Assembly: GCA_944321085.1 (NCBI GenBank)
Contig: CALUJY010000010.1
Span: 1 to 64,000 of the forward strand
Direction: 5' to 3'
From: an uncultured Barnesiella sp.
GTDB lineage: Bacteria > Bacteroidota > Bacteroidia > Bacteroidales > Barnesiellaceae_A
DNA length: 64,000 nt
Positions 47,459-54,929 of the stretch are shown one piece after another. Each line of letters starts with the position of its first letter. Position 1 is the first letter of the stretch. The notes below the pieces were generated by a model. It had not been told where the DNA came from and searched no databases. It saw nothing but the letters and a program-made list of their open reading frames with translations. A program made the translations under genes and the position numbers.

Positions 47459-47500
47459 CGATAATCCCAAACCCGACAGTAGGTTTGGGATTATCGTTTT
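47459..47500 (+). terminator. DEAD-box helicase terminator
   Basis: Perfect 15-bp stem (cgataatcccaaacc 47459-47473 with 47482-47496), eight-base loop, followed by TTTT. It lies 75 bases past the helicase stop. Confidence 0.85.
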
Positions 47501-47602
47501 ATTAGCATATCACCACATTTCGAAAGCCACATACAGAAGTAATTCCACATCATATCGTTACAAATAGCGATTTGACAACTCTTTTTTACCAACTAATAGG
47601 GA

Positions 47603-47633
47603 TTGTTCAGCCCCATAAACGCTTATACTTTTG
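47603..47633 (+). promoter_or_regulatory. Promoter of the porin-imelysin-oxidoreductase cluster
   Basis: TTG (47603-47605), 20 bases, TACTTTTG (47626-47633). The leader to the porin ATG (47661) would be about 20 bases. No Fur-like or other repressor palindrome is evident to my reading. Confidence 0.6.
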
Positions 47634-47660
47634 CAACAAAATAATACAAATTGCAAAAGA

Positions 47661-48980
47661 ATGAAAGGAAAAGCCTTGCTCCTCATCCTTGGACTGACAA
47701 CGGCTCTCATGCCTGTCCATGCCGATAATAACGACCTCACTCCCCAATCAGAAAATACGAAAGAGACAACCAAAGTAGCACAAATTCTATCGCGTTTCAC
47801 CGTAGGAGGCTACGGCGAGGCGGTATATAGCTACAACTTTTATAGCGACAAATACACCCGTTACCTCTATCCCGAAAATTATAAAAACGAGACACACGGA
47901 CGCTTCGATTTACCCCACGTCGTGATTTACCTCGGATATGATTTCGGCAAAGGCTGGACTATGGGCAGCGAGATAGAATTTGAGCATGGGGGTACCGAAG
48001 CTGCAATAGAGATAGAAGAAGAGGAAGCCGGCGAATATGAAAGCGAAATAGAACGCGGCGGCGAGGTCGCGTTGGAACAATTCTGGATACAAAAATCTAT
48101 TTTTCCTCAACTCAATATCCGTATAGGACACATCATCGTGCCCGTTGGCGGTACCAACCAACACCACATGCCTACCGAATTTTTCGGCGTCTACCGTCCC
48201 GAGGGAGAGAACACCATACTACCCTGCACATGGCACGAAACAGGTATCAGCGTTTGGGGTCGCGCCGGCGACTGGCGATATGAAGTTCTTCTCATCCCGG
48301 GACTCGACTCCGACCGCTTCGGGCGTATGGGCTGGATACACGATGGCTCGGGAAGCCCTTACGAATTTAAGATAGGGAATGCCGTAGCCGGGGCTTTCCG
48401 TATCGACAACTACTCGGTCAAGGGATTACGCCTTTCATTGAGCGGCTACGTTGGCAACTCTTTCAGCAATACGCTGAGCGGAAATAAAGACAACACACGC
48501 TACAAAGGGGTCAAAGGTACGGTTGCCATAGGAGCTTTCGACTTCAATTACACAGGTTACAACTGCATTGTACGCGGCAACTTCGACTACGGCTACCTCA
48601 GCGATGCCGAGGCTATCTCAAAAGCCAATGCCAACATGAGCCAAAACTCGCCATCGTCACACCAAACAGTCGCTTCGGCAGCTATCGCCGGGGGCCTCGA
48701 AGCCGGGTATAATATCTTCGCACATATACCGTCGCTCAGCAAGAGAGGTCAAAAATTCTATCTCTTCGGTCGTTACGACTACTACGATTCGATGTACAAA
48801 ACCTCAACACCGCTCTACGAATATTGCGGTCGCAGCCGTATTGCAGCCGGCATCAACTACTACCCGTTGAAAGAAATCGTCATAAAAGGAGAATACTCGA
48901 TAGGATTGCTGAAAGCCCCCTACAACAACGAACCAGCCGTTTCGATAGGTATCGCATACGCCGGATTCTTCACAAAATAG
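47661..48980 (+). CDS. Outer-membrane beta-barrel porin with acidic segment
   Basis: Predicted outer-membrane porin of 439 residues: signal peptide (1-21, LLLILGLTTALMPVHA) then alternating beta-strands from FTVGGYGEAVYSYNF to a C-terminal SIGIAYAGFFTK ending close to an aromatic residue. It resembles short OprP/OprO-like and 'porin' families but no charged-ladder signature can be read. Residues 116-132 (IEIEEEEAGEYESEIER) are a run of ten acidic residues in a likely loop near the barrel mouth, which could attract cations; this is an inference. The start is ATG 47661. It leads the cluster with imelysin, di-heme oxidoreductase and CcsBA. Confidence 0.78.
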   Translation: MKGKALLLILGLTTALMPVHADNNDLTPQSENTKETTKVAQILSRFTVGGYGEAVYSYNFYSDKYTRYLYPENYKNETHGRFDLPHVVIYLGYDFGKGWTMGSEIEFEHGGTEAAIEIEEEEAGEYESEIERGGEVALEQFWIQKSIFPQLNIRIGHIIVPVGGTNQHHMPTEFFGVYRPEGENTILPCTWHETGISVWGRAGDWRYEVLLIPGLDSDRFGRMGWIHDGSGSPYEFKIGNAVAGAFRIDNYSVKGLRLSLSGYVGNSFSNTLSGNKDNTRYKGVKGTVAIGAFDFNYTGYNCIVRGNFDYGYLSDAEAISKANANMSQNSPSSHQTVASAAIAGGLEAGYNIFAHIPSLSKRGQKFYLFGRYDYYDSMYKTSTPLYEYCGRSRIAAGINYYPLKEIVIKGEYSIGLLKAPYNNEPAVSIGIAYAGFFTK

Positions 48981-49015
48981 CTCATTCAACATAGTCTAAC
49001 ATAAATTTTTATAAG

Positions 49016-50236
49016 ATGAACCACACGAAAAAATTCATGCAATCTCTCGGGGCAATAGCCACGGCAACAATTCTGTTAACAGCTATTCAGGCTTGCTCCG
49101 AGAACAACAACGAACCGCCTGCTCCGACCGACACAAAAGATACGGCCTTACAAGCAGCTATCACGGCATACGTCGACAATGCCGTAATACCGACCTACAA
49201 AACCATGGCCGATGAAGCCATCCTGTTGAGCAACCTCTGCGGGCAAGCCCGCGACTGTTTTATCGCAGGCGACATAGATGCAGCCAATAACCACATCTCA
49301 TTGGCCTGCCAACACTGGACGGCGTCGCGTGAAGCATGGGAACTCAGCGAAGCATGGCTCTACGGTGCAGCTGCCGATTACAACATAGACCCTCATATCG
49401 ACTCGTGGCCTCTCGACCGCACGGCTCTCGTTGCCCTTCTAAGCAACAGCTCTATGATGCAAAACATAGGCAATGGCGGAGCCGAATGGGTAAGCGCCAA
49501 CCTCGGTTACGGCCTGCTCGGGTTTCATGCCATAGAATACATGATTTATGAGTTATCGTCCGACGGGCTTACAAGCAGCCCGCGCAACCTAAGCCATCCT
49601 TTCGACGACGGAACAACAGTAACCGACAACCACATGATATATATGGCGGCCGTTGCCGAAGACTTGCGCAACCAATGCGTGCGGTTAGAAGCCTCTTGGG
49701 CGGGGATGAGCAACATTACCGCTGAAAAGCAAAATATACTTACGGAGGCCGAATTAGAACCGACACGCAACTATGGCGAGGATATGAAGAATGCCGGACG
49801 TGCCGGCAGCAGCTACCAAAGCCTCACGCTCGCAGCGCAACAGCTCATACAAGGCTGCATAGATATTGTAGACGAAGTAAACACGCAAAAGATAGGCCGC
49901 CCCAACAGTGGCACAAGTACCGAAGACAAAAGTTACATAGAATCGCCCTATGCGCTCAATTCGGTGGTTGACTTCGCCGATAACATCCGCAGCGTACGCA
50001 ATGCCTACGAAGGCATCGATAACACATCTTCTGTAAGTGACTACATTGCAACGGTGGCTCCCGACGTAGACACACAGGTACGCAATCTCATCGACGAATG
50101 TATCTCCAAAATAGAAGCTATCCCCGAGCCCTTTGCCAATCATGCCACCGGTAACGAAGCCGATGCAGCCATGGAAAGCCTTGGCAATCTGTCGAATGCC
50201 TTGGCCAAAGTCAATACCACTCTGCTACAAAACTAA
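49016..50236 (+). CDS. Imelysin-family (IrpA/ICMP-like) lipoprotein
   Basis: Lipoprotein of 406 residues with lipobox cysteine C27 (TAIQACSEN). The mature protein is helical and holds the imelysin GxHxxE motif G169-F170-H171-A-I-E174 (LLGFHAIEYMIYE), preceded by QARDCFIAGDIDAANNHISLACQHWTASREAWELSEAWLYG. Family members act in iron (or copper) handling in the periplasm; metal-binding is inferred from H171/E174. The name peptidase is historical, and no protease motif is needed. It follows the porin by 35 bases and precedes the CxxCH oxidoreductase. Confidence 0.9.
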   Translation: MNHTKKFMQSLGAIATATILLTAIQACSENNNEPPAPTDTKDTALQAAITAYVDNAVIPTYKTMADEAILLSNLCGQARDCFIAGDIDAANNHISLACQHWTASREAWELSEAWLYGAAADYNIDPHIDSWPLDRTALVALLSNSSMMQNIGNGGAEWVSANLGYGLLGFHAIEYMIYELSSDGLTSSPRNLSHPFDDGTTVTDNHMIYMAAVAEDLRNQCVRLEASWAGMSNITAEKQNILTEAELEPTRNYGEDMKNAGRAGSSYQSLTLAAQQLIQGCIDIVDEVNTQKIGRPNSGTSTEDKSYIESPYALNSVVDFADNIRSVRNAYEGIDNTSSVSDYIATVAPDVDTQVRNLIDECISKIEAIPEPFANHATGNEADAAMESLGNLSNALAKVNTTLLQN

Positions 50237-50244
50237 TCCCGACC

Positions 50245-50279
50245 AAACAGCCGGTTGAACAATCAGCAACCGGCTGTTT
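50245..50279 (+). terminator. Hairpin between imelysin and oxidoreductase genes
   Basis: Perfect 13-bp stem (aaacagccggttg 50245-50257 with 50267-50279) and nine-base loop, 8 bases past the imelysin stop. The T-tract is poor (TTTATCATAT), so it may attenuate, or protect the upstream mRNA, rather than fully end transcription. Confidence 0.65.
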
Positions 50280-50333
50280 ATCATATCCATTACGAACCTG
50301 TTATTACACAGAACCATCATTCCAATAAATAGC

Positions 50334-52067
50334 ATGAAACAAATCCGTTACTGCATATATTCCCTTCTTACTGTATATATTTTATGCGGCTGCAAGGAAG
50401 AAGAGTTGCCTCCGACTCCCACCCCATCGACAGAAGAGTTGCCCGACTGGTATTACGCTGGTGGAGAATTAGGCACTGCGTATCTGAGTACATCCAATGC
50501 CTACGAACAACCTACCCCGGTGGTAGAAGCCGATGGCGAAATGAACCGCCGATTCAAAAACGGCGAGGCTCTCTTTGAGCACATGTACATGTCGAACCAT
50601 AGCGGCGTACGCAGCGGTTTAGGCCCAGCATACGTACGCAGTTCGTGTATCCATTGCCACCCGGGATATGGTCATGGCAAACGCAATCCCGACGGCTTCT
50701 TCGAGACTTCATCTATCGGGAACGGCTGCCTGTTGGTCGTTTATAACCCCGACAACGACCAGTATGTAAGTTGGCTCACCGGTATGCCGCAAGGGCACGC
50801 CATCGAACCTTTCAAAGCGCCGCTCGACGAGACAAAGGTCATCATCACATGGCAAAAATATACCGACGAGTGGAACAACCGCTTTCCCGACGGTGAGACT
50901 TACGACCTCGAATACCCCGAAGTAACCATGTCGCCCGACGCTGTCTATGCCTACAACCGCGGTGTAGTAACCGACTTAGGCAACTACGAGGTGTTGTTAG
51001 AATCTACCATAGGTATTTACGGCACAGGATTGCTCGACGCCATCTCCGACGAAGACCTCAAAGCCCAATATGCCAAAGAAGAACGCGACGGCTTCCTGCC
51101 CAACGGTATCAATCCGGCATTTTTCCGAAACGGAGAGTGGGTAAAACAATACAGCAACACCAAAGCTACCGATGTAGCGCCGGGGTTCGACGCCGCCGGC
51201 GAGCAACACCCTTTCCGTTTTACCTACGCACTCAGCCGCGGCCCGCTGCAAGATGCCGCCGGAGCAAACGCCATGTGGAACATACCCAACGTTACACGCA
51301 GCAACCGCCGCTATCACTACCTCGACACCTATTTTGCCAATGCCGAGGGCGACGACAAAACCAAATTCGGCGGCAGTTCTTGGGTAAAGGCCTCGGCTTA
51401 CGACCCCGAAGTGCAAGCCGGATACCGCGACTACATTGAAAGGCTCGACCCTGAACGGAACCACCCGACATGGCACGCCGCCGACTACTCCGACAGCGAA
51501 TCGATAGCAACGGCCATTGCAGCCTACTTGTCGTCGAAAGAACTCGATGTCGAGATGGACGACGAAGACTACATCGACTTTATGGTTTGGCATCGCGGGC
51601 TGGCTGTCCCGGCCGTACGCAATATCGACAACTCTACCGTAACACGCGGCAAGGAACTCTTCGAGGAGATAGGTTGTGCCTATTGCCATCGACCCTCGTG
51701 GACTACCGGCGACGACAACTATTACGACCCTAACGGATTTTTCGCCCGCGGCGACAATCGTCTGCCTCGCTATCCCCGACAAACCATCTGGCCTTACTCC
51801 GACCTCATACAACATAAACTGCACATGAAGAACGACATACGTACCGGTTGGTGCCGCACCACACCTTTATGGGGACGCGGGTTGCACCAAATGTGCACCG
51901 GCTCGGTCACCGCCGACCGCCTGCACGACAACCGTGCCCGCAACGTTATAGAGGCCATCATGTGGCACGGTAATCCGCAAAGCGATGCCCGTTGGAGTGT
52001 CGAAGCATTCCGCAACCTTCCCAAAGCCGACCGCGATGCCATCGTAAAATTTATAGATTCTATCTGA
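50334..52067 (+). CDS. Di-heme c-type oxidoreductase lipoprotein (DHOR family)
   Basis: Lipoprotein of 577 residues: lipobox near C20 (YILCGCKEE). Two heme-attachment motifs, C105-I-H-C-H109 (SSCIHCHPGYG) and C448-A-Y-C-H452 (IGCAYCHRPSW), fit the di-heme oxidoreductase family (formerly DUF1111, sometimes called thiol oxidoreductase, related to cytochrome c peroxidases). Other landmarks are RFKNGEALFEHMY, FRFTYALSRGPLQDAAGANAMWNIPNVTRS and the C-terminal TTPLWGRGLHQMCTG and HDNRARNVIEAIMWHG. Electron source and substrate are unknown. In Proteobacteria the family is often encoded beside imelysins, as here. Confidence 0.9.
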   Translation: MKQIRYCIYSLLTVYILCGCKEEELPPTPTPSTEELPDWYYAGGELGTAYLSTSNAYEQPTPVVEADGEMNRRFKNGEALFEHMYMSNHSGVRSGLGPAYVRSSCIHCHPGYGHGKRNPDGFFETSSIGNGCLLVVYNPDNDQYVSWLTGMPQGHAIEPFKAPLDETKVIITWQKYTDEWNNRFPDGETYDLEYPEVTMSPDAVYAYNRGVVTDLGNYEVLLESTIGIYGTGLLDAISDEDLKAQYAKEERDGFLPNGINPAFFRNGEWVKQYSNTKATDVAPGFDAAGEQHPFRFTYALSRGPLQDAAGANAMWNIPNVTRSNRRYHYLDTYFANAEGDDKTKFGGSSWVKASAYDPEVQAGYRDYIERLDPERNHPTWHAADYSDSESIATAIAAYLSSKELDVEMDDEDYIDFMVWHRGLAVPAVRNIDNSTVTRGKELFEEIGCAYCHRPSWTTGDDNYYDPNGFFARGDNRLPRYPRQTIWPYSDLIQHKLHMKNDIRTGWCRTTPLWGRGLHQMCTGSVTADRLHDNRARNVIEAIMWHGNPQSDARWSVEAFRNLPKADRDAIVKFIDSI

Positions 52068-52096
52068 TGCCTAAGCGATAATATCACCTTTCACCG

Positions 52097-52141
52097 CAGG
52101 AGACATATTGCCGATCTCAGCATAAGGCAGTATGCCTCCTG
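52097..52141 (+). terminator. Hairpin between oxidoreductase and ccsBA
   Basis: A 16-bp stem with one mismatch and one G-U pair (52097-52112 with 52126-52141, arm caggagacatattgcc) and 13-base loop, followed by TTTCCGATT. It lies 30 bases past the oxidoreductase stop and 28 before ccsBA. Confidence 0.55.
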
Positions 52142-52168
52142 TTTCCGATTAACCCAAGCCTCACCATC

Positions 52169-54403
52169 ATGACAAAAAACGTCATACTCCTACGCAATAT
52201 CTGTTTCGGAACGACGGCACTGACCATACTCGTACTTATGGCAGCCACCATCATAGAGCATGTTTTCGGGACAGATTTTGTCTCATCTCACATTTACAGC
52301 TCTCCTCTTTTCGTCACACTATGGGCTCTTGTAACGGCATCGTCGCTGCTTTACCTCATAGCCCGCAAAATGACGAAACGCAAGCCCGTATTTTTACTGC
52401 ACCTCTCTTTCGTCGTCATTCTCACCGGCGCTCTCACAACGCATATCGACGGCATACAGGGTAATATACACCTGCGACAGGGCGACAAGCCATCATATAT
52501 CTATCGCACACGCCATGGCAGCGAGGGAGTTCTACCTTTCGGTATCGCCCTCGACGACTTCCGGCTCGCCTACTATCACGGGACGCTTGCTCCCATGGAT
52601 TTTATCGGCTCACTCACCATATACGACGGTAACGCTGTTTATCACGGCGAGACGTCGATGAACCGCATATACAGTTACCACAACTACCGTTTCAACCCAT
52701 CGACCTACGATTCCGACGGCAAAGGCTGCACGTTGCAACTCTCTTACGACCCCTATGGCATCGCCATCACCTACACCGGGTATGCCATGCTGCTGCTCGC
52801 CATGCTACTGTTTTTCTTCGACAGCAAAAGTTCTTTCCGCGGCTTGCTGCACCATCCTGCCTTGCGCAAATTTACGGTATGCGCCGCTTTGGCCGCAGCT
52901 CCATACATACCGGCACACGCCGACGAGCTGCCGCCAACCCTCCCCCCGAATATCGCCGAGAAAATGGGGAACCTGTATATCTATTACAACGACCGCGTAT
53001 GCCCGCTGCAAACATTGGCTCGCGACTTTACTACCAAACTATACGGCAAACCATCGTATCGGGGCATGAGTGCCGAACAAGTTCTCTTAGGATGGTTTTT
53101 CTACTACAACGAATGGAAGGAAGAACCCATGATACGCATCAAAAGCAAAGAAGTAAGGCAAATGCTCGATATGCAAGGGAAATATACCTCTTTGGTCGGC
53201 TTCTTCGATAACGAGGGTTACAAACTGACTTCGGCTCAACAAGAAGAGACAAAAGCGCATGACCTGCGTGGCATACGCGAAGCCGACGAGCAGGCCAACC
53301 TTGCAAGGTTGGCCTGCTCGGGCTATATCTTCAAGATTTTCCCTTATCGCGAAAACGACAGCATTCCTCCTGTATGGCTTTCTGTTTCAGATCGTTTACC
53401 GGCATCGATGCCCTACGAGCAATGGCTATTTATACGCTATTGCATGAACTATATGGCCGAACATGTGACAAAAGGAGATTTCGCCACCGTAGACTCATTG
53501 ATTGCCAAAACACTAAAATACCAAGAAAAGGAGGCTCACGGCTTTCTGCCAAGCAATACCCGCTTCCGTGCCGAAAAGCTCTACAATGCAATGGCATCGA
53601 CATCGTTCGTAGCCATAGGATGCCTTATAATAGGTATGGCAGCATTTGCCTTCTACTGCCGGTACTTTTCGCACGGCAAGCATAAAAAGCCGTCGTGGGC
53701 AAACCGACTGCTCGTCACGCTTATGCTCATCGCCTTACTGTACATTCTTGCCGTAATGGTATTGAGGGGCATTGTAGGCGGGCACTTCCCGGCTTCGAAC
53801 GGTTTCGAGACGATGCACCTCATGGCCGCCTGCTCCCTGATATTATCCATGACGTTTCACCGACGATTCGACATGCTGCTGCCTTTCGGCTTCCTGCTAT
53901 GCGGTTTTGCATTACTTGTAGCAATGCTCGGCGAAGCCAATCCGCCCATCACACAACTTATGCCGGTATTATCGTCACCACTATTGAGCATACACGTCGC
54001 CACTATTATGATGGCTTATGCCTTATTTGCCTTTGCCATGTTCAACGGGGCGACAGCCATCATCATACACGGCACCCACCCCTCAAACGACGAATCGATA
54101 GAACGATTGTATATTCTGAGCCGCATCATGCTCTATCCGGCAATATTTTTGTTGGCAACAGGAATCTTCATCGGTGCCGTATGGGCGAATGTCTCATGGG
54201 GACGCTATTGGGGCTGGGACCCCAAGGAGGTATGGGCACTCATTACGTTGCTCGTCTACTCGGCTGCATTACATACGACTTCGCTGCCGGCCTTGCAACG
54301 TCACATGTTTTTCCATCGATTTACCGTGATTGCTTTCTTGTGCGTATTAGTCACTTACTTAGGCGTAAACTTTTTCCTCGGCGGGCTACACAGCTACGCC
54401 TGA
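52169..54403 (+). CDS. ccsBA: System II cytochrome c synthase CcsBA
   Basis: Integral membrane heme lyase of 744 residues that moves heme out and attaches it to CxxCH motifs. The N-terminal ResB/CcsB-like part has helices at about 12-35, 47-62, 70-85 and 190-210; a long extracytoplasmic segment (about 250-475) follows; the C-terminal CcsA part (480-744) has about eight helices with the WWD-type heme motif WGRYWGWDPKEVW (677-689). Its neighbour is the only CxxCH protein in the window, so it probably serves it. The ResB part is shorter than in two-gene systems. A perfect palindrome lies at codons 373-384. Confidence 0.93.
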   Translation: MTKNVILLRNICFGTTALTILVLMAATIIEHVFGTDFVSSHIYSSPLFVTLWALVTASSLLYLIARKMTKRKPVFLLHLSFVVILTGALTTHIDGIQGNIHLRQGDKPSYIYRTRHGSEGVLPFGIALDDFRLAYYHGTLAPMDFIGSLTIYDGNAVYHGETSMNRIYSYHNYRFNPSTYDSDGKGCTLQLSYDPYGIAITYTGYAMLLLAMLLFFFDSKSSFRGLLHHPALRKFTVCAALAAAPYIPAHADELPPTLPPNIAEKMGNLYIYYNDRVCPLQTLARDFTTKLYGKPSYRGMSAEQVLLGWFFYYNEWKEEPMIRIKSKEVRQMLDMQGKYTSLVGFFDNEGYKLTSAQQEETKAHDLRGIREADEQANLARLACSGYIFKIFPYRENDSIPPVWLSVSDRLPASMPYEQWLFIRYCMNYMAEHVTKGDFATVDSLIAKTLKYQEKEAHGFLPSNTRFRAEKLYNAMASTSFVAIGCLIIGMAAFAFYCRYFSHGKHKKPSWANRLLVTLMLIALLYILAVMVLRGIVGGHFPASNGFETMHLMAACSLILSMTFHRRFDMLLPFGFLLCGFALLVAMLGEANPPITQLMPVLSSPLLSIHVATIMMAYALFAFAMFNGATAIIIHGTHPSNDESIERLYILSRIMLYPAIFLLATGIFIGAVWANVSWGRYWGWDPKEVWALITLLVYSAALHTTSLPALQRHMFFHRFTVIAFLCVLVTYLGVNFFLGGLHSYA
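53287..53320. repeat. Perfect 34-bp palindrome inside ccsBA
   Basis: The 34 bases 53287-53320 read the same on both strands: arm cgagcaggccaacct, centre ttgcaa. It encodes DEQANLARLACS in frame in the segment between the ResB and CcsA parts. A 17-bp stem without loop is unusual within a coding sequence. Confidence 0.9.
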
Positions 54404-54419: not shown

Positions 54420-54929
54420 TCAAGGCATATATCCGCCCTCGCTTGTCACAGCGTACCCTCCGGGTTCGAGATGCAGAATGCGCTGGTTGCTACTCCCCCT
54501 GAACAGCAATGCGGGGTCGTGCAACGAAGCTACAAATCGGCCGTCGACAAGCGTATCTATCCACTGCAAGCAACGGCACAACGCCTCGTCGCGCAACAGT
54601 TGCTCATACGTATAACCGGTATAGCACCATATATTTTGGTGGGTCTCTCGTTTAAGAAGCTCCAACAACTCATACAGTGCTGCCGGATTATAGAAAGGGT
54701 CTCCGCCCGTAAGCGTGATACCGTCGAGCAAAATATTATCATTGATTTCTCGGATGATACGCTCTAATATGGCATCGGTCAGCGGCTGACCGGCATCGGC
54801 ACGCCAACTATCGGGGTTGTGACATCCGGGACAGGCATGACGACAACCGGCAAGGTAGATGGCATAACGCAGCCCGTATCCGTCGGCTATAGTCTCGGGA
54901 AATACATTCAGAATGTTGAGCCCTTGCAT
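54420..54929 (-). CDS. nrdG: Anaerobic ribonucleotide reductase activase NrdG
   Basis: Radical SAM activase of 169 residues that generates the glycyl radical on NrdD. The cluster motif is C29-x3-C33-x2-C36 (CRHACPGC), followed by SAM-binding GGDPFYNP. Its ATG (54929) lies 22 bases inside the end of nrdD, so translation is coupled. Convergent with ccsBA, with 16 bases between stops and no terminator in view. Confidence 0.95.
   Translation of the reverse strand: MQGLNILNVFPETIADGYGLRYAIYLAGCRHACPGCHNPDSWRADAGQPLTDAILERIIREINDNILLDGITLTGGDPFYNPAALYELLELLKRETHQNIWCYTGYTYEQLLRDEALCRCLQWIDTLVDGRFVASLHDPALLFRGSSNQRILHLEPGGYAVTSEGGYMP

Follow-up and report, generated by a model that had tools for sequence, protein, structure and literature searches.

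The four genes of interest lie on the plus strand of a 64,000-nucleotide stretch of DNA from an uncultured Barnesiella sp. (contig CALUJY010000010.1; the window), and encode, in order, an acidic outer-membrane porin, an imelysin lipoprotein, a di-heme oxidoreductase (DHOR) lipoprotein and a fused CcsBA cytochrome c synthase. They are a genuine unit conserved across many relatives, and we consider it probable that they form an iron-starvation-induced outer-membrane system that uses heme c redox chemistry for iron acquisition. A preliminary description of the window had placed four open reading frames (ORFs) in one direction behind one promoter and had read them as a single envelope module. Both the ORFs and the promoter are present and the place given for them is right apart from its start, since position 47603 belongs to the promoter, as its -33 TTG, and the ATG of the porin gene is at 47661.

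Gene order and co-occurrence support a single module. Among 80 loci from named genomes, which were fetched with the DHOR alignment and to which all synteny counts refer, the exact order porin, M75 (imelysin), DHOR, CcsBA is found in 66, with median gaps of 38, 27 and 53 bases; the corresponding gaps in the window are 35, 97 and 101 bases. In most of the remaining loci a contig end cuts the cluster, a duplicate is present or one member is gone. Of 392 Bacteroidales genomes sampled, 65 have DHOR and 64 the acidic porin (as a strong match); both are found in 63 genomes, the porin alone in one and DHOR alone in two (Fisher p 2e-69), one of the latter having a truncated porin match. Within the genus only two of nine genomes carry DHOR. 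The scattered distribution in relatives that had been named as a danger to the one-module claim is therefore real in so far as the module is patchy within the genus, but its genes are gained or lost together.

The link to iron is provided by the control region. The promoter (47603..47633, plus strand), which is of the Bacteroidetes type and was read directly from the sequence, consists of the -33 TTG (47603-47605), a spacer of 20 nucleotides and the -7 element TACTTTTG (47626-47633), and ends 27 bases 5' of the porin ATG; a sigma-70 promoter scan is uninformative for this phylum. The same motif is present in 62 of 113 upstream regions of homologous porins, against a shuffle mean of 1.2. Alignment of the porin promoters of 58 relatives on that TTG revealed a palindrome overlapping it, approximately AAWTACCNAWWWWTNGGTATTG. 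With a matrix built from these 58 relatives, the window site being held out, the palindromic operator TTTTTACCAACTAATAGGGATT (47583..47604, plus strand; overlapping the -33 element) received the top score of about 128,000 sites on both strands of the window, at 21.0 bits; the next site scored 15.2, and the maxima in shuffled sequence were 10.8-13.6. A weaker operator-like site at 47551-47572, 32 bases 5' of the main operator, scored 13.3 and is the fourth-best in the window.

This combination of operator and promoter is also located 5' of DUF2023-flavodoxin operons (L138:16920 and L128:3208), of a gene for a TonB-plug protein that is followed by PepSY_TM (L097), of genes for hemerythrin-domain proteins (L097, L148 and L054), and of a lone CcsBA (L123) and a separated DHOR (L151). 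In Porphyromonas gingivalis and Prevotella intermedia, DUF2023-flavodoxin (fldA) ranks with the genes that low iron induces most, and in Bacteroides thetaiotaomicron it is strongly upregulated under low iron (PMC10434189). Because the operator precedes DUF2023-flavodoxin operons, it may mark a wide low-iron regulon in Bacteroidales, to which the module would belong by virtue of the operator it has in common with low-iron genes. DUF1111/DHOR proteins are usually annotated as thiol oxidoreductases. In low iron, a B. thetaiotaomicron locus of similar content, BT2473-BT2482 (M75, thiol oxidoreductase, CcsA and porin), is upregulated 63-324 fold while nrfAH-ccsAB of the same species is downregulated about 30 fold; the locus is also induced in part in colitis (PMC10434189). 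The metal-uptake role originally suggested for the module is supported, the metal being most likely iron; the metal oxidation suggested as its alternative is hypothetical. Uptake across the outer membrane is the most likely function because the operator is common to known iron-starvation genes, and regulation and family together indicate iron as the substrate.

Hemerythrin-domain proteins are encoded near the module in L097:15048-15764, L148:9860-10552 and L054:12638-13594, one of them with a LuxR-type helix-turn-helix (HTH); in B. thetaiotaomicron, BT2482 carries the annotation of an HTH regulator. Some loci (L049:5912-7477, L051, L133 and L125) hold two DHOR copies, and in L049 and L125 operator-like sites are found 5' of the upstream copy.

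The 577-amino-acid DHOR (50334..52067, plus strand) has a lipobox whose Cys20 is invariant in 48 homologues, as are two heme-binding CxxCH motifs, C105-H109 (50646..50660, plus strand) and C448-H452 (51675..51689, plus strand). It matches PF06537 over residues 407-576 only (E=1.6e-34; 119.7 bits against a cut-off of 22). In a comparison of its structural model (pLDDT 83.8) with known folds, ranks 1-41 all belong to the bCcP/MauG superfamily, with Z scores of 9.5-12.2, root-mean-square deviations of 3.5-4.6 and 207-264 residues aligned within model range 34-577, and the next row falls to 3.7; the matches include 6e1c, a MauG-like protein of copper homeostasis (Z 11.1). Foldseek alone placed the model weakly (E 0.01), and the DHOR profile retrieved only a cytochrome c555 fragment from PDB sequences. 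DHOR is thus predicted to adopt the di-heme bCcP/MauG fold, and its enzyme activity is putative. Its predicted fold and two CxxCH hemes are those of bCcP/MauG enzymes, most of which, in contrast to DHOR, are about 200 residues shorter and are not lipoproteins; the Pfam DHOR family covers only its C-terminal part.

The imelysin (peptidase M75, IrpA-like; 406 amino acids; 49016..50236, plus strand; PF09375 E=1.1e-39) is of the canonical, unpermuted order, as 4ecg aligns to it in one stretch (6e-24) and the permuted Bacteroides ovatus protein 3n8u in two swapped stretches (9.4e-42). Its lipobox Cys27 is found in 39 of 39 aligned homologues, in which the GxHxxE motif (G169-x-H171-x-x-E174; 49520..49537, plus strand) shows conservation of 0.92-0.95; the acidic site residues E109, E112, D125 and D129 are also conserved. 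W228 is invariant, and W131 lies within a DSWPLD motif common to imelysins elsewhere. At least two acidic residues directly follow the first Cys in 79 of 117 imelysins and 76 of 125 DHORs. Acidic residues just after the lipoprotein Cys fit the surface-export signals of Bacteroidota, and on the strength of the lipoboxes and these acidic tails both lipoproteins are predicted to be exposed at the surface.

The porin (439 amino acids; 47661..48980, plus strand) matched no family in a Pfam search. Its model is a barrel (pLDDT 85.6) that matches 281 PDB structures at E<=0.001; each of the 50 listed is an outer-membrane barrel, and trimeric porins and OprP are among the matches. Residues 104-139 (47970..48077, plus strand) include 15 Glu, at least nine of which are invariant or nearly so in alignments of homologues, and the net charge of the segment is -10 to -14 in 45 porins. 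Residues 99-148 are modelled as an extended beta-hairpin with a low-confidence tip. In DHOR-free genomes, the alignments of weaker homologues cover model positions 1-107 and 133-430 but not the hairpin (108-132), from which the acidic hairpin is judged to be an insertion tied to the module. The predicted barrel resembles trimeric porins and OprP at an identity of about 10%, and where OprP has an arginine ladder for phosphate the module porin has the inserted Glu-rich hairpin. Three features on which the preliminary description had relied, a cation-attracting acidic stretch in the porin, HxxE in the imelysin and two CxxCH motifs in the second lipoprotein, therefore all reappear here as conserved elements, the attraction of cations being a prediction from the Glu residues.

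CcsBA (744 amino acids; 52169..54403, plus strand) resembles the System II synthases 25vk (E=1.3e-90) and 7s9y (6e-74) in its fusion of ResB (PF05140, E=8e-9) and CcsA (Cytochrom_C_asm, PF01578, E=1.5e-30), in the WWD motif of CcsA (W677-D684; 54197..54220, plus strand), which is kept in 79 of 79 readable relatives, and in its heme-ligand histidines (H609 in 80/80, H741 in 79/80, H78 in 73/80 and H702 in 71/80 relatives). In a tree of CcsA-domain proteins, all 41 sampled cluster copies group with a further cluster copy (L199) and with a displaced copy of a DHOR genome (L195) as one clade (support 0.945), apart from the sampled nrf-linked, ccp-linked and other CcsA proteins. A CcsA-domain protein is present in 65 of 65 DHOR genomes versus 255 of 327 others (Fisher p 7e-7), and an NrfA match in 8 of 65 versus 176 of 327 (Fisher p 2e-10). 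A single CcsA-domain protein is encoded in the genome of the window (2.54 Mb, 99.96% complete); neither a second one nor NrfA (PF02335) was found there. Since the cluster copies form their own clade, and since all DHOR genomes have CcsA and few have NrfA, the cluster CcsBA looks like a heme ligase dedicated to the module, as had been proposed. DHOR is not thereby established as the sole c-type cytochrome, because a genome scan for CxxCH gave 338 matches, the first 100 of them listed, against 195 for a control pattern. The single PF03150 match in the genome (E 0.165) is at an ORF without CxxCH, and a search with PF13442 gave no match but was insensitive, as DHOR itself, which matches this family weakly, was missed. 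Congeners (L161:4508-7519 and L162-L165) encode ResB, a 259-amino-acid CcsA and a 459-461-amino-acid CCP_MauG protein with three CxxCH motifs and an N-terminal Haem_bd domain, and all but G002 have this set instead of the module. The idea that the CcsA of these congeners serves an unseen NrfA was dropped, as it adjoins the three-CxxCH protein. One genome, G002, carries both the module and the CCP_MauG set with its ResB/CcsA.

The most likely mode of action for the module is as follows. In low iron a regulator would leave the operator and the four proteins would be made; CcsBA would attach two hemes to DHOR, and the imelysin would bind iron, either at the outer membrane or close to it. DHOR would then change the redox state of the iron. 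Somewhat likelier is that Fe(II) is oxidised to Fe(III) and that peroxide or oxygen accepts the electrons, as has been proposed for Efe-type systems; reduction by DHOR is a possible alternative direction. Through the acidic porin the cation would enter the periplasm and there be taken over by a separate carrier of the inner membrane, for example FeoB. A more specific version, offered tentatively and with distinctly less confidence, is a TonB-independent iron port in which the Glu hairpin selects iron, the surface imelysin and a two-heme enzyme that sets the redox state supply it, and a private cytochrome c synthase and one low-iron operator serve the whole. Several points count against an iron-acquisition system. 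The match to the B. thetaiotaomicron locus is one of annotation and gene content and not of sequence, the proteins of the module are known here from sequence and models alone, and the genome and locus counts ignore relatedness. The cluster has no gene for an electron donor or acceptor and none for an inner-membrane iron permease. In addition, the permuted relative PIBO bound neither ferric ion, zinc nor heme by thermofluor (PMC3143127).

The fold of DHOR allows it to be seen in other ways. It could be a tailoring enzyme like MauG or MbnH that oxidises aromatic residues of the imelysin to build a metal site, iron itself not being its substrate, as the fold matches to MauG and 6e1c, the invariant W228 and the strict adjacency of the two genes might suggest. 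We regard this as unlikely, given that bCcP peroxidases score equally in the fold match, that the modified residue is so far hypothetical and that W131 need not be a target, its motif being common to imelysins elsewhere. That same bCcP fold would suit a peroxidase that acts on hydrogen peroxide in the periplasm or at the surface, induced only incidentally by iron limitation, and congeners do have a CCP_MauG peroxidase of the classical kind, accompanied by a ResB and a CcsA of its own. G002 has both systems, however, and such a peroxidase would leave unexplained why DHOR is almost always paired with an acidic porin and imelysin and why the operator is common to iron genes; we hold it to be slightly less probable than tailoring.

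The identity of the metal is a further point of doubt. Besides Fe, the M75 protein EfeM also binds Cu and Zn (PMC9174327), and DHOR resembles a copper-linked MauG-like protein, so that the imelysin and DHOR could handle copper or another metal, with iron limitation acting indirectly. The operator is nevertheless common to flavodoxin genes and iron depletion induces the similar locus of B. thetaiotaomicron, which makes this improbable. Least probable is that the module respires metals as a porin-cytochrome conduit for extracellular electron transfer: a porin and a heme lipoprotein do occur side by side, but DHOR has only two hemes and a bCcP fold, and the cluster includes no multiheme cytochrome, as would go with the porin in Mtr/Pio-type conduits, and no quinol dehydrogenase, its two CxxCH motifs being the only ones.

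Several known systems come close to the four-gene module. The neighbourhood of imelysin and DHOR, already recognised in the preliminary description, was noted in 2011 as a link between imelysin and DUF1111, the DUF1111 protein then being called EfeB-like (PMC3143127); EfeB has been placed in the DyP family (PMC3577903). Pseudomonas aeruginosa PA4370-PA4373 and similar loci likewise combine imelysin with a DUF1111 di-heme protein and are Fur-regulated, but two imelysins are present, and no acidic porin or CcsBA is reported there (PMC3143127). EfeUOB/EfeM is similar in setting an M75 domain beside a heme redox enzyme in iron uptake; unlike it, the module lacks the EfeU permease and a cupredoxin domain, has DHOR instead of a DyP peroxidase, and adds the porin and CcsBA. 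EfeU (Ftr1) is not in the locus, which is bounded by helicase and radical-SAM genes and has only the four genes as conserved neighbours, and an EfeB DyP-type peroxidase was discarded as the redox partner, given the c-type heme motifs and bCcP/MauG fold of DHOR. With neither EfeU nor DyP, the module is not a member of EfeUOB, although its working probably resembles that of an iron-uptake redox system. BT2473-BT2482 by annotation resembles, unlike the window module, a diverged version of the module (L069:7624-10763, L070 and L071) with extra genes for a Porin_O_P porin and a RidA-like protein, which precede CcsBA in those loci that have it; some of these loci also have a single-heme lipoprotein (PSCyt1-like).

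The module is best read as a Bacteroidota version of the known imelysin-DHOR theme. The imelysin-DUF1111 neighbourhood has been known since 2011 and the low-iron induction of a similar locus since 2023; as far as our literature searches reach, no study names or tests the four-gene module, and the unit with its hairpin-bearing porin, dedicated CcsBA clade and operator is new. Iron is usually pictured as entering across the outer membrane by TonB-dependent uptake of chelates or by passive leak. If our interpretation is true, a starvation-induced porin and heme-redox module would be a further route for gut Bacteroidales competing for iron, and the similar locus ranks with those most strongly induced under low iron. 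The data also suggest a role for the lone CcsBA of anaerobes without nitrite reductase, as cytochrome systems seem each to come with a synthase of their own, and the operator offers a handle on low-iron regulation in Bacteroidota.

The module is set apart from the upstream DEAD-box helicase gene by the strong intrinsic terminator of the latter (47459..47496, plus strand), a 15-bp stem followed by a T run (dG -24.1 kcal/mol, z -5.6). On the 3' side it meets a convergent minus-strand gene (54420-54929) with radical SAM/4Fe-4S domains. RNA hairpins occupy the gap between imelysin and DHOR (50245..50279, plus strand; 13 bp, dG -23.6 kcal/mol, z -5.5) and that between DHOR and CcsBA (52096..52142, plus strand; dG -25.4 kcal/mol, z -3.9). 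Neither has a long T run, and control at the level of the transcript is possible. Because both longer gaps hold strong hairpins, expression may be graded across the module, with DHOR and CcsBA perhaps made at lower levels. In one genome (L067:2700-4283), a 527-amino-acid lipoprotein-like ORF and a smaller ORF lie between the porin and the imelysin.

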